A stretch of DNA of 64,000 bases from Lacibacter sp. H407 (GTDB taxonomy: Bacteria; Bacteroidota; Bacteroidia; Chitinophagales; Chitinophagaceae), in assembly GCF_037892605.1 (NCBI RefSeq), contig NZ_JBBKTU010000001.1, forward strand, positions 1,860,001-1,924,000, given 5' to 3'. Numbering within the stretch: position 1 is the stretch's first letter; every line of letters starts with the position of its first letter. The position numbers and the translations under genes are program-made. A model generated the notes under the pieces. The model was not told the origin of the DNA. It searched no databases and saw only the letters and a program-made list of their open reading frames with translations. This document shows, piece after piece, positions 18,556-57,200 of this stretch.

Positions 18556-18606
18556 GTTGATAGTTCATGGTTCATAGTGTTCTGCTATGAACCATGAACT
18601 ATCAAC
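18556..18606. repeat. Heptad-repeat inverted pair between eno and divIC (perfect 22-bp stem)
   Basis: Two perfectly complementary 22-nt arms (18556-18577 and 18585-18606) surround a 7-nt loop. Each arm is made of 7-bp units: left GTTGATA, GTTCATG, GTTCATA; right the complement. A 17-nt core of the right arm (starting CCATGAA) recurs at 30890. The stem would be very stable in the eno-divIC transcript and could separate expression of the two genes. Confidence 0.85.
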
Positions 18607-18611
18607 TAAAG

Positions 18612-19904
18612 TTACTTACCAAATTTAATCTTTCCGTTTGGATAAATTGCATTCTCACCCAGCATTTCTTCGATGCGGATGAGTTGGTTGTACTTCGCCA
18701 TACGGTCGGTACGAGAAGCTGAACCGGTTTTGATCTGTCCGCAATTCAATGCAACTGCCAGGTCAGCAATTGTTGTATCTTCTGTTTCACCACTTCTATG
18801 ACTCATCACCGTATTGTAACCTGCATTCTGCGCCATTTGTACAGCGTTGATGGTTTCCGTAACGGTACCGATCTGGTTTACTTTGATCAGGATAGCGTTA
18901 GCAGTTCCTGTATCAATTCCTCTTTTTAAAATTTTGGTATTCGTTACAAACAGATCATCACCTACTAATTGAATTCTGCTGCCAATTGCATCGGTGTGTT
19001 TTTTCCATCCTTCCCAATCTTCTTCTGCCATACCATCTTCAATTGAAATGATGGGATATTTATTCACCCACTCTGTCCAGTATGCAACCATTTCATCGCT
19101 GCTGATCACTTTCGAAGGATTGCTTTTGTAAAACTTATAGGTTTTTGTAGCACCATCATACATTTCGCTGGAAGCAGCATCCATACCAATCGCTACTTGC
19201 TCGCCCGGTTTGTAACCTGCCGCAGTGATCGCTTCCAGTACAGTTTCAATCGCTTCTTCGTTGCTTTGAATTTCAGGAGCAAAACCACCTTCATCACCTA
19301 CGTTTGTACTGAATCCTTTTTTCTTTAATACAGATTTCAGGTGATGGAAAATCTCCACACCCCAACGTAATCCTTCACTGAATGATGTAGCACCAACAGG
19401 GATCACCATGAATTCCTGGAAATCAATTTTGTTATCGGCATGTGCACCACCGTTCATGATATTCATCATGGGAATAGGTAACACAGTACTGTTTACACCA
19501 CCGAGGTAACGGTACAAGGGTAATCCACTTTCTTCAGCGGCTGCTTTTGCAACGGCCATACTTACAGCCAATGTTGCGTTTGCACCAAGATTGCTTTTGT
19601 TATCAGTACCGTCAATTTTCAGCAGAAGTGAATCGATATACGCCTGGCGTGTAACATCAATACCGATGAGTTGATCGGCAATAACTTCATTCACATTTGT
19701 TACAGCTTTCAATACACCACGACCCATGTATTTGCTTTTATCTCCATCACGCAGTTCAACTGCCTCATGTATACCAGTGCTTGCACCGCTTGGAACAGCA
19801 GCACGGCCAAGAATTCCGTTTTCGGTAATTACATCTACTTCAACAGTTGGGTTACCACGGCTGTCGAGAATTTGTCTTGCATGAATGTCGGCGATAAAGC
19901 TCAT
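18612..19904 (-). CDS. eno: Enolase (phosphopyruvate hydratase)
   Basis: A 430-residue glycolytic enzyme converting 2-phosphoglycerate to phosphoenolpyruvate. Typical motifs are [38 protein letters not shown], the loop [28 protein letters not shown], metal ligands in [14 protein letters not shown] and [10 protein letters not shown], and the catalytic lysine/serine region [14 protein letters not shown] ... [17 protein letters not shown]. The ATG at 19904 gives the usual N-terminus; an upstream in-frame start at 19961 falls in a repeat-rich leader and is rejected. divIC follows across a repeat hairpin. Confidence 0.98.
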
Positions 19905-19943
19905 AAAATTCAGTTTGTAGTTAATGTTTGCAGTTGTTACAAA

Positions 19944-54484: not shown

Positions 54485-55861
54485 ATGAGCCAGACTGCCG
54501 ATAAATTTTTAGCGAAGAGTACCATCAAGTCTGCCGACCTGGATCACAGGCGTACGATCAATTTCAATATTGGCAAATACAATGCAAAAGTGCCGGAAGG
54601 GAAACAGCAGTTTACACAAATGCTTACTGCACGTGAACGTGCAAAGAATGTGAAATGGCGTGCATTGGAAACACTGGATCAGCAACTCGAAGAATTTGAA
54701 TTGCAGTTTACACGTCGTGGCGGCAAAGTGATCTGGGCCGAAACTGCACAACAGGCTTGCGATGAAATTCTGAAAATATGTGAAGCACGAAATTGTAAAA
54801 CATTGGTGAAGAGTAAGAGCATGGTAACAGAAGAAATTCACCTGAACGATTTCCTTGAAAAAAATAATATTGAGAGTGTTGAAACAGATTTGGGTGAATA
54901 CATTCAGCAATTGGATGGCGAAGCGCCTTATCATATTGTTACACCCGCCATGCATAAAAGCAAGGAAGATGTGGCGAAATTATTTGCTGAAAAATTGGGA
55001 ACTGACCCGAAAGCAACTCCAGAACAATTAACGTTGGTTGCACGAAAAATACTTCGTGAAAAATATGTACAGGCAGAAGTAGGTGTAACGGGTGCCAATT
55101 TTATTCTGGCTGATGTTGGTGGTATTGCTGTAACAGAAAATGAAGGCAATGCGAGATTGAGTTGTGCATTTCCGAAAACGCATATCGTTGTTGTTGGTAT
55201 TGAAAAAATGTTACCGAGCATGCATGATCTTGGTTTGTTCTGGCCATTGCTTGCAACATACGGAACAGGTCAGCAGGTAACAGTCTACAACAGCATCGTG
55301 CTCGGACCAAAGCAACCCGGTGAAACAGATGGTCCTGAAGAAATGGTGGTGATCTTATTGGACAATGGACGGACAAATGTGTTGAAGAATCCTGTTACAA
55401 GAGAAAGTTTGTATTGCATCCGTTGTGGCGCATGTTTAAATGCTTGCCCTGTTTATAAAAATATTGGTGGTCATAGTTATGGTGCAACGTATAGCGGACC
55501 CATTGGAAAAGTGATCACACCGCATTTAAATGACCTGGATGAATACAAACATCTGAGTTATGCATCATCGCTTTGTGGTAACTGCACAGAAGTTTGTCCG
55601 GTGCGGATTAATTTGCATGAACTCTTATTGGAGAATCGTCACGAAGCAGTAGAACAAGGTTTCTCTTCGTTCGGTGAACGCATGGCATGGAAAGTATGGA
55701 AGCGTGCTTCATTAAGTCGTAAGATGATGAACATGGGCAACAGCAAAATCAAAAACTGGGTGATCAACAAATTTGTGAAAGACTGGACTAAACATCGTGG
55801 CCCCATGAATTTCCCTGAAAAAAGTTTCAACCAGCTTTGGCAGGAACGTAACGGGAAGTAA
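54485..55861 (+). CDS. lutB: LutB/LldF family lactate-oxidation iron-sulfur protein
   Basis: A 458-residue protein. An N-terminal LUD domain (about residues 60-290; SKSMVTEEIHLNDFLEKNNI; ADVGGIAVTENEGNARLS) is followed by two [4Fe-4S] motifs, CIRCGACLNACPVYKNIGG and CGNCTEVCPVRINLHELL. LutB works with LutA and LutC to oxidise L-lactate to pyruvate. Neither lutA nor lutC is adjacent; here lutB lies in an operon with DUF3109 and deacetylase-like genes, so complex formation would need genes elsewhere. Confidence 0.9.
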   Translation: MSQTADKFLAKSTIKSADLDHRRTINFNIGKYNAKVPEGKQQFTQMLTARERAKNVKWRALETLDQQLEEFELQFTRRGGKVIWAETAQQACDEILKICEARNCKTLVKSKSMVTEEIHLNDFLEKNNIESVETDLGEYIQQLDGEAPYHIVTPAMHKSKEDVAKLFAEKLGTDPKATPEQLTLVARKILREKYVQAEVGVTGANFILADVGGIAVTENEGNARLSCAFPKTHIVVVGIEKMLPSMHDLGLFWPLLATYGTGQQVTVYNSIVLGPKQPGETDGPEEMVVILLDNGRTNVLKNPVTRESLYCIRCGACLNACPVYKNIGGHSYGATYSGPIGKVITPHLNDLDEYKHLSYASSLCGNCTEVCPVRINLHELLLENRHEAVEQGFSSFGERMAWKVWKRASLSRKMMNMGNSKIKNWVINKFVKDWTKHRGPMNFPEKSFNQLWQERNGK

Positions 55862-55869
55862 CTTGAAGC

Positions 55870-57159
55870 ATGCTTGTTTACACAGCACATATTACTCCAC
55901 GCATTTCTTACATTCTGCAGTATTTCAATGAACAGTTATTGGTAGATGCTGAGTTGACAGATGATGTAGAACATTATCGCTCATACACTGGTAACAAACT
56001 GAATTATTCTGATGAGCGGATTGATGCTGCAGAGTTTTACATCAAGCCGATTGGATTATTGCAGCAGGATTTTATCCGTAAGCAAAAAATACAATGCTTT
56101 GATTGGAACGGTGTTAAAGCATTTTTTCAAACGGATGATGATCTTGGGTTTGATGTATTCGCTGCCGTGTTTTTTCTCATTACCCGTTACGAAGAATATA
56201 CCGAATCTGAACCGGATGAATATGGCCGCTATGCTCATTGGAATTCATTAGCATGGAAAGAAGGGTTCTTAAATCAACCATTGGTTGATATTTGGTTGAT
56301 TGCATTCGGCAAAGGACTAAAGATAAAGTTCCCATCACTCGCCATTCACCACTCACCATTCACCTTTGTTCCCACTTACGATATTGATATTGCCTGGAGT
56401 TACAAACACAAAGGCTTTTGGCGAAGTGTGGGTGCATCGCTTAACCATCCTTCATCTATTCCAAAACGATTAAGTGTATTAAGCGGCAAAGAAAAAGACC
56501 CGTTTGATTCATACGATTGGATCAACGATTTGCATCAGCAATATGAATTGAACCCAATCTTTTTCTTTTTAGTAGCAAGGGATAAAAGTGAATACGATAA
56601 AAATATTTCTCCTGCAAAACCTCCGTTGCAACAGTTGATCCGCTCTGCTGCTGAGAAAGCGACAATTGGGCTGCATCCATCAGTACAAAGCAATGTAAAC
56701 AAAGCGTTGCTGTTAAAAGAACGAGATGAATTGCAATGGATCAGCCGGAAAGAAATCAAACATACACGTTCTCATTATATCCGTTTTCATTTACCACATT
56801 CGTTTCAGGAATTGATCGCTGCCGGTTTTACAGATGAATACAGTATGGGTTACGGTACTGTGAATGGCTTCCGTGCATCTACTTCGCATTCATATTTGTG
56901 GTACGACTTAGAAAGAGAAGAATCTACATCACTCCGTATTCATCCATTTGCATATATGGAAGCCAATTCGTTTTATGAATTACGTCATTCACCTGAAGAA
57001 GCGTTGGCAGAAGCAAAACAGTTAGCAGAAGAGGTGAAAAAAGTTGGCGGTACTTTTATTACAATTTTTCACAACCACATGTTGGGAACTGATCCGATGT
57101 TTAACGGATGGAAGGAGATGTATGAAGCATTGGTAGCTGAAGTACGAGGTACGATGTAA
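55870..57159 (+). CDS. Polysaccharide deacetylase-family protein with N-terminal DUF7033-type domain
   Basis: A 429-residue soluble protein. The first 160 residues resemble the DUF7033-type domain (DDLGFDVFAAVFFLITRYEEY; YGRYAHWNSLAWKEGFLNQP), followed by a NodB-like barrel (FVPTYDIDIAW with Asp171/Asp173; TIGLHPSVQSN; KHTRSHYIRFH; FITIFHNHMLGTDP). The classical TFDDGP motif is altered to TYDIDI. Residues 156-165 are encoded by a heptad-repeat array, and a second array supplies the last codons and stop. Third gene of the DUF3109-lutB unit; substrate unknown. Confidence 0.82.
   Translation: MLVYTAHITPRISYILQYFNEQLLVDAELTDDVEHYRSYTGNKLNYSDERIDAAEFYIKPIGLLQQDFIRKQKIQCFDWNGVKAFFQTDDDLGFDVFAAVFFLITRYEEYTESEPDEYGRYAHWNSLAWKEGFLNQPLVDIWLIAFGKGLKIKFPSLAIHHSPFTFVPTYDIDIAWSYKHKGFWRSVGASLNHPSSIPKRLSVLSGKEKDPFDSYDWINDLHQQYELNPIFFFLVARDKSEYDKNISPAKPPLQQLIRSAAEKATIGLHPSVQSNVNKALLLKERDELQWISRKEIKHTRSHYIRFHLPHSFQELIAAGFTDEYSMGYGTVNGFRASTSHSYLWYDLEREESTSLRIHPFAYMEANSFYELRHSPEEALAEAKQLAEEVKKVGGTFITIFHNHMLGTDPMFNGWKEMYEALVAEVRGTM
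56336..56363. repeat. Heptad-repeat array in frame inside the deacetylase-like gene
   Basis: Four 7-bp units: CACTCGC, CATTCAC, CACTCAC, CATTCAC. It is translated SLAIHHSPFT at the junction of the two domains. The first 23 bp are identical to an array 837 bp downstream. Confidence 0.88.
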
Positions 57160-57200
57160 GAAGTACGCAACGCACTCGCCATTCACCACTCACCACTTGC
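57140..57200. repeat. Double heptad-repeat array spanning the stop of the deacetylase-like gene
   Basis: The first block (57140-57167) has AAGTACG, AGGTACG, ATGTAAG, AAGTACG and includes the stop codon at 57157-57159. After five bases the second block (57173-57200) has CACTCGC, CATTCAC, CACTCAC, CACTTGC. It fills the convergent gap up to the rluF stop at 57205. Confidence 0.9.

Follow-up and report, generated by a model that had tools for sequence, protein, structure and literature searches.

The window analysed here is a 64,000-nucleotide stretch of Lacibacter sp. H407 (Chitinophagaceae, Bacteroidota; genome of 4.87 Mb, called G000 below), positions 1860001-1924000 of contig C1. It holds short tandem arrays that share a period of 7 bp and differ in the heptamer they repeat. 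Period 7 is in excess, arrays persist at fixed sites among related species with different units, and sister species have equal lengths at most of the arrays they share. In one coding gene, that of a DUF7033 protein, bases 7 nt apart covary. Lineages prefer different units, and one unit variant sits at three places of a single genome. This suggests that DNA is rewritten seven bases at a time, in some cases within functional genes, by a copying process that has been little studied. We argue, and would give it an even chance, that the arrays are satellites of degenerate heptamers that evolve in concert, being rewritten where they stand with copy number unchanged and copied between loci.

Arrays were sought with Tandem Repeats Finder (TRF) and with a period-7 scan in which a match scores +1 and a mismatch -1. 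The period spectrum of G000 comes from 464 kb, namely the window and 20 stretches of 20 kb. At a score of at least 14 this sample has 16 arrays of period 7, against 0, 2, 0, 1 and 0 of periods 5, 8, 10, 11 and 13. Multiples of 3 are somewhat raised (4, 3, 3, 4 and 2 arrays of periods 6, 9, 12, 15 and 18), and multiples of 7 are raised too (7 of period 14, 9 of period 21). No period-7 array is left when the sample is shuffled by a 5th-order Markov model or by triplets (one replicate each), and 100 kb of E. coli K-12 has none. Across 1.48 Mb of family loci there are 64 arrays of period 7, 26 of period 8 and 23 of period 9, with 2, 2, 4 and 0 of periods 5, 10, 11 and 13; runs of N, which had inflated the initial family spectrum, were split out for this count. 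If periods divisible by 3 or 7 are set aside, period 8 comes second to period 7. Twenty other genomes of the phylum have 7 period-7 arrays in 338 kb. Among single relatives the excess is clear in G005 (10 arrays in 220 kb) and G001 (5 in 60 kb). G002, G003, G004, G009 and G011 have 1-3 period-7 arrays each, and period 9 or 6 can match or surpass this (G011 has 3, against 4 of period 9); these mixed spectra come from small samples. G012, at 55% GC, has no period-7 array in 60 kb. The initial annotation of the window had described a dispersed class with one period and different units, and had proposed a shuffled control. The class is real, and its period exceeds the shuffles and most other periods, so that the arrays qualify as heptanucleotide tandem repeats by standing above both chance and the neighbouring periods. 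A crude call of open reading frames (ORFs) places 15 of the 26 arrays scoring at least 12 in the G000 sample in intergenic DNA, which is about 9% of it, with 8 in coding sequence and 3 at edges.

That annotation had also listed nine strict arrays between 18556 and 57200, each varying by one or two bases. Seven of the nine are clear and the period is right, but the wording was too strong, as the arrays are degenerate. The array at 35523 is weak, and the one claimed at 19944..19974, upstream of where enolase probably begins, has a period-7 score of just 7 and is most readily taken as a chance match. TRF often shows a 14-bp ABAB order of units in the window. The sites are as follows, in window coordinates.

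18549..18608: GTTCATR array with an inverted arm (18549-18578, score 13; 18587-18608, score 11), at the junction of enolase (18612-19961, minus strand) and a DivIC-like ORF (18252-18575, minus strand)
21185..21239 (approximate place), minus strand: gldA linker, no array in G000; GldA identified by the NCBIfam equivalog TIGR03522
30849..30914: GTTCATN array with an imperfect inverted arm (30849-30875, score 14; 30892-30914, score 10), between an extracytoplasmic function (ECF) sigma factor gene (30917-31402, minus strand) and a gene downstream of it without a clear family assignment (29771-30838, minus strand)
35392..35479, plus strand: CAATAGG arm (35393-35409, weak, score 8) and TATTGCC arm (35441-35479, score 14), between a transpeptidase-domain gene resembling a penicillin-binding protein (PBP; 34579-35385) and a VWA/Bat-like gene (35556-36551), the PBP-Bat junction
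35523..35546, plus strand: weak ATCTTGT array, score 11, also in the PBP-Bat junction
38218..38248, plus strand: AGTCGAT/AGTCCAC array, score 16, in frame in the linker of ispG (GcpE, PF04551; 37340-39418)
53206..53238, plus strand: TTCGTAC/TTCTTAC array, score 20, in frame in the N-terminal hydrophobic stretch of GldD (PF25593), probably a signal peptide
56336..56367, plus strand: CACTCAC/CATTCAC array, score 15, in frame in the DUF7033 protein gene (55870-57159)
57139..57197, plus strand: GAAGTAC array at the end of the DUF7033 gene, then a CACTCAC array, together scoring 18 and not a hairpin; a pseudouridine synthase gene (57205-57939, minus strand) converges on this junction

It is worth comparing these sites among relatives, as the initial annotation had proposed. 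The genus set has 14 genomes, G000 and 13 relatives, with one genome per species, and units were read by eye. The relatives carry different heptamers at fixed sites: the junctions after enolase, the sigma factor and the PBP-like gene, and the linkers in DUF7033, ispG and gldA. After enolase there are GTTCATR hairpins in G000, G001, G002, G003 and G011, GTTTAAA/GTTGAAG hairpins in G009 and G010, and a GTTTAAM-like hairpin in G008. G004, G005 and G013 have inverted repeats that are not heptameric, nothing is evident in G007 and G012, and the enolase of G006 is interrupted by a contig end. After the sigma factor the unit is GTTCATR in G000 and G004, AAGNNCC-like in G003, G006, G009 and G011, ACAAGRA in G008 and AGCTNTG in G010, while G001 and G002 have a period-8 AGTCNGAA pair. 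The G005 array looks decayed, G012 and G013 have none, and the sigma factor is without a close ortholog in G007. Among the loci listed for the PBP-Bat junction, CAATAGG is found in G000 and G003, GTTTNNN in G001 and G002, and no array in G011. G001 and G002 have several unit variants in common there, in a different order and at equal length. The ispG linker reaches a period-7 score of at least 10 in 15 of 94 loci, L047 being a marginal case. The best of the control periods 5, 8, 10 and 11 reaches it in 1 of 94, and three of the 94 loci repeat another contig. The linker's unit is AGTCGAC, CTCACTA, GTCAACC, CAATNGG, CAGTCAA, CAACTGT or GAGGTCA depending on the lineage. At the GldD site a CGTACTT-like unit is seen by eye in several orthologs.

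The strongest case is the DUF7033 segment. It has equal length in 13 of 14 genomes and, read by eye, six unit types in one phase: ATTCACC-like, ACTCATC, CTACAAA, CTTCAAA, TTTCAGT or CTACACC. G007, G012 and G013 have no array. The columns were tested in 13 genomes, with G013 omitted for a 5-residue insertion. Bases 7 nt apart match at 0.574, against 0.443 (standard deviation 0.013) after columns are permuted among genomes; z is 10.2, and 9.9 when codon blocks are permuted. Control offsets 4, 5, 8, 10 and 13 give z of -1.2 to 0.4, and offset 11 gives 2.8. The same statistic was computed for 39 of 53 ORFs (at least 7 and up to 9 genomes each; 3,877 overlapping windows, 7 offsets, 60 permutations each). 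All of the top five z values (6.0-8.7, with effects of 0.07-0.15) belong to the DUF7033 site at offset 7, and the next-highest is 5.4 with an effect of 0.003.

Length is also kept elsewhere. The gldA linker, compared in 11 of the 14 genomes (G006, G007 and G008 are missing), has equal-length arrays in six (scores 9-19), and G000, G004, G005, G012 and G013 score 2-8. Its units are AAATCGG/AAATCAA in G003 and G001 and AAATCCAAAAAACA-like in G002, G009, G010 and G011. These alleles conflict with the species tree in that G003 goes with G001 and G011 with G002, which suggests allele exchange or parallel change. Sister species, whose DNA diverges by 9-15%, were compared wherever one had an array scoring at least 11 and the other at least 9. 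Of ten such comparisons eight are exactly equal in length, one is off by 1 nt, and one (ispG) is off by 63 nt, the last being a palindromic insert outside the array. None of the ten, which are all at species level, has a 7-bp change of copy number inside an array.

Units also appear to travel between loci. Among the 14 genus genomes, CACTCGCCATTCAC occurs in G000 only, at three places, two of them 837 bp apart. It is common to the array at 56336 and the locus at 57139..57197, and the third place, a weak array with a score of 8, agrees with the 57173 array in 27 of 30 bases. Preference between two related units differs by lineage. Pair matches for CAYTCAC:CAYTCAT are 44:10 in G001 and 28:5 in G006, 6:68 in G009 and 4:39 in G010. 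They are nearly even in G000 (24:24), G002 (25:32) and G003 (32:25), stand at 17:32 in G011, and are few in G004, G005, G007, G008, G012 and G013. About 0.15 matches per genome are expected by chance for these patterns, and a backward-read control gives 0-14 for the CAYTCAC pattern, one form of which reads identically backwards, and 0-3 for CAYTCAT. Counted by hand as loci, the ratio is 26:7 in G001 and 6 to at least 22 in G009 (Fisher's test, 9e-6), and it differs across five genomes (chi-square p 7e-6); these are five of the 14, with complete and not tiny sets save for the lower bound in G009. The claim that the arrays are more than the simple spread of one element holds in that there are several unit families; the variant found at three G000 places only speaks the other way.

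A whole mobile unit with flanks is rejected: among the pairs listed from 20 compared loci, identity is confined to the arrays, save for a 68-bp stretch (L244/L250) and the ortholog pair L241/L254. L244 and L250, both in G009, have in common a stretch of about 30 bp with GCTAAAGCTTCGGTGAGCA that lies immediately upstream of CACTCAT arrays at these two different loci, perhaps a small dispersed element accompanying them.

Under concerted evolution an array would occupy a tolerant place, such as a gene junction, a protein linker or a signal-peptide-like stretch. Its units would be homogenised by copying 7 nt out of register with no net change of copy number, and therefore the motif would drift as a block, the protein changing along with it where the array is coding. 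Array sequence may also be seeded or converted between loci, so that each genome would contain many copies of a small number of unit families, with different variants preferred in different lineages. The ordinary replication or recombination enzymes could carry out the molecular step, either as gene conversion out of register or as template switching. Most arrays would be neutral and some may have been put to use, as in the eno-divIC hairpin and the GldD N-terminus. A bolder proposal is that a hitherto unrecognised mutational process of the Bacteroidota turns existing DNA, coding sequence included, into period-7 arrays without net indels, copying from one unit away once 7-nt similarity exists. 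Unit variants would also be copied between distant arrays, so that orthologs in sister species differ by the "heptamer dialect" of the genome. We regard this bolder proposal as possible and somewhat doubtful.

Several results weigh against in-place rewriting. Substitutions were polarised in three sister pairs, and the 6,757 outside arrays have no preference for the base 7 nt away. Only 113 of the total of 6,870 fall in array neighbourhoods, too few for templating to be demonstrated directly. In the scan of 39 genes there is no general excess at offset 7, where 43 windows have z above 3, against 84, 49 and 42 at offsets 4, 8 and 5. The formal covariation signal is at DUF7033 only, and the gldA site failed the scan. 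A neighbour with a different unit lies within 100 bp of 6 of 60 arrays, and a neighbour of any kind within 100 bp of 15 of 60, compared with 64 of 1,200 random places. The ten sister comparisons span few loci (DUF7033 three times, gldA twice), and selection on the reading frame would mask 7-bp changes of copy number at coding sites. Some arrays were gained or lost with a net change of length (34 to 7 in G005 against G004; 63 to 34 at the sigma junction), and some junctions align too poorly to judge (e.g. 156 to 135, G003 against G011).

The initial annotation had suggested a process that templates 7-nt steps in general, and this finds no support in the substitutions, the 39-gene scan or the masking of intergenic DNA. 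We reject genome-wide templated substitution at 7 nt, given that the 6,757 substitutions have no offset-7 excess. Saturation of neutral DNA with period 7 is rejected as well: in intergenic DNA bases 7 nt apart match at a rate of 0.282, compared with some 0.270 for offsets 8, 10 and 11, and the rate falls to 0.271 once stretches scoring at least 7 are masked. The intergenic excess thus comes mostly from discrete arrays, though the masking is partly circular.

The usual explanation of tandem repeats in bacteria is slippage with a change of copy number. One can imagine that replication slips in the ordinary way, with a step of about 7 nt preferred, and that duplications arise anywhere, expand and decay. 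Such slippage would account for the excess of period 7 with period 8 next, and for near-perfect long arrays such as TCAATAG x13 in L107 and the CACTCAT arrays in G009. It does not account for ten sister comparisons without a 7n change of copy number within an array, for the presence of the same unit families at tens of loci with differences between lineages, or for DUF7033 units that shift together, with no change of length, in a coding gene. We consider slippage unlikely on this evidence, and it is the strongest rival because one genome per species hides copy-number change within species and frame selection masks it in genes.

The arrays could instead be selected regulatory or structural elements, such as terminator-like or stabilising hairpins or protein-binding heptamers, with motifs turning over under structural selection. 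Four inverted pairs able to fold had been claimed for the window. The eno hairpin is strong, with a 22-bp perfect stem, a 7-nt loop and a fold z of -8.4. The pair at 35385-35490 in the PBP-Bat junction is moderate (-2.65) and the sigma junction is weak (-1.7; 11 of 200 shuffles equally good), while 57130-57205 does not fold (+0.55). The eno-divIC hairpin persists in the genus with 5 of its 22 pairs changed on both sides and 92% of cells paired, against at most 51% in slid controls, in a test on just four distinct sequences of one geometry with the structure derived from one of them. By eye, G004, G005 and G013 have another hairpin at this junction, and a T-rich run follows the hairpin in G001, G003 and G011. 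However, a stem score of at least 12 is found at 6 of 58 genus array loci (1 of 290 random stretches), arrays also lie inside coding linkers, and some relatives have no array at the same junction. We hold selection on structure to be an improbable explanation for the class, and the hairpin as a common denominator of the arrays is rejected.

We find it quite improbable that a family of mobile elements, resembling REP/RAYT or templated by a reverse transcriptase, inserted the arrays or hairpins. The arrays are dispersed, partly palindromic and patchy over the phylum, where CAYTCACCAYTCAC is found in 40 of 296 genomes (10-27 matches in some, just one in several), with the backward control also high in some genomes (G014, G267). 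There is also one 27-nt case of presence and absence, and 13 of the 14 genus genomes match Y1_Tnp, G000 with 4 matches. On the other side, that 27-nt case is the single clear one and has no target duplication by eye, and 52 of 58 loci have no strong stem. Length is constant at the DUF7033 and gldA sites, which leaves no net insertion there. A linked reverse transcriptase or transposase, as the initial annotation had asked about, fares poorly: RVT_1 is matched in 6 of the 14 genomes, G000 not among them, and several of the other 8 have arrays, while G011 has arrays and no Y1_Tnp match. No dedicated enzyme for the arrays was found in searches limited to Y1_Tnp and RVT_1, with other transposases and polymerases not searched, and the results do not call for one. 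Finally, allele exchange between species by homologous recombination would fit the gldA alleles that disagree with the species tree, but it creates neither period 7 nor in-phase unit change and sits badly with six DUF7033 unit states within one genus; we regard it as very improbable as the source of different units at orthologous sites.

The arrays have counterparts elsewhere. Heptanucleotide repeats of cyanobacteria are called short tandemly repeated repetitive (STRR) sequences and come in several unit classes. Repetitive extragenic palindromic (REP) elements, which have RAYT transposases, are dispersed short palindromes between genes. The Lacibacter arrays are like REP elements in being dispersed, between genes and partly palindromic; unlike them, they occur in G011 without a Y1_Tnp match, most are not palindromic, and they take coding sites too. 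The P6b hairpin of the Nostoc tRNA-Leu intron is described as degenerate heptamers in inverted arrays that fold into a hairpin, and in lichen Nostoc the major differences are typically in repeat copy number (PMC3488679). The resemblance in form to the cyanobacterial repeats that the initial annotation had seen is supported, as Lacibacter units are degenerate heptamers too; inverted pairs that fold, one strong, one moderate and one weak in the window, are found at a minority of loci. The host is different, a member of the Bacteroidota and not a filamentous cyanobacterium, and in contrast to the intron repeats, sister species mostly differ in the unit and not in the length, and they do so within protein genes as well.

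The GGGAATC and GGGGA(C/T)T heptamers of Xanthomonas and Nostoc are dispersed and strongly biased to non-coding DNA, and GGGAATC repeats lie between the same genes in related species while varying in length and sequence (PMC4692102), traits that they have in common with the Lacibacter arrays. They are one G-rich, G-quadruplex-capable unit, whereas Lacibacter has many units, with GGG or CCC in 1 of the 26 G000-sample arrays and 8 of the 26 in coding sequence. TAACTGA direct repeats are reported in Beggiatoaceae, cyanobacteria and five Bacteroidetes, and other heptamer repeats share intergenic regions in some of the Bacteroidetes (PMC4679880). Unlike the Lacibacter arrays these have a single unit, which in the main genome is mostly found immediately before start codons. 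Both papers relate from an earlier study the idea that polymerase contacts set a slippage step of about 7 nt (PMC4692102, PMC4679880). Beyond PMC4679880, searches of open-licence papers gave nothing on such arrays in Bacteroidota, and they yielded no account of units turning over at orthologous coding sites with length unchanged.

What sets the genus apart from the usual slippage picture is that motifs change while length is mostly kept, and that at one coding site they do so in lockstep at 7-nt spacing with the protein following. If the mechanism is true, it offers a tractable bacterial model of concerted evolution at the scale of a unit. It would also explain odd linkers in Bacteroidota proteins and caution against reading such segments as protein-level adaptation. 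The arrays bear as well on the question of why bacterial genomes favour repeats of 7 nt.

Some details of the window remain to be described. It is 41% GC and encodes GldA, GldD, ispG and the VWA/Bat-like gene together, a gene content that points to Bacteroidota and away from cyanobacteria; it contains no HIP1 octamer, and an Rfam search at gathering scores gave 0 matches. The first ATG of the DivIC-like ORF as listed lies inside the GTTCATR array. The listed enolase ORF begins at TTG, by eye well upstream of the likely start.

Other observations concern arrays outside the window. The ispG linker of L009, L010, L011 and L012 has a different in-frame insert, CCTCACCCTTCGGGGGAGGTCGGGAGGGGGCTT-like, which has the look of a dispersed, palindromic element that inserts into genes as well. 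Degenerate period-8 arrays in the style of the heptamers occur in family loci L079, L090, L078, L030 and L080 (CATTAGCA, AGTTCACA, AGTCNGAA). Contigs end in or beside CACTCAT arrays at L246 (the end of G009:C26) and G009:C7:5-81. Draft assemblies may therefore be broken at such places, and counts of the longest arrays may be too low. The TCAATAG array of L107 (6627-6716, in G000) is far more regular than the other sampled arrays and is possibly young or active. L241 and L254 are an orthologous 334-aa frame in G000 and G003 with two arrays about 20-35 bp apart, and the units differ by species.

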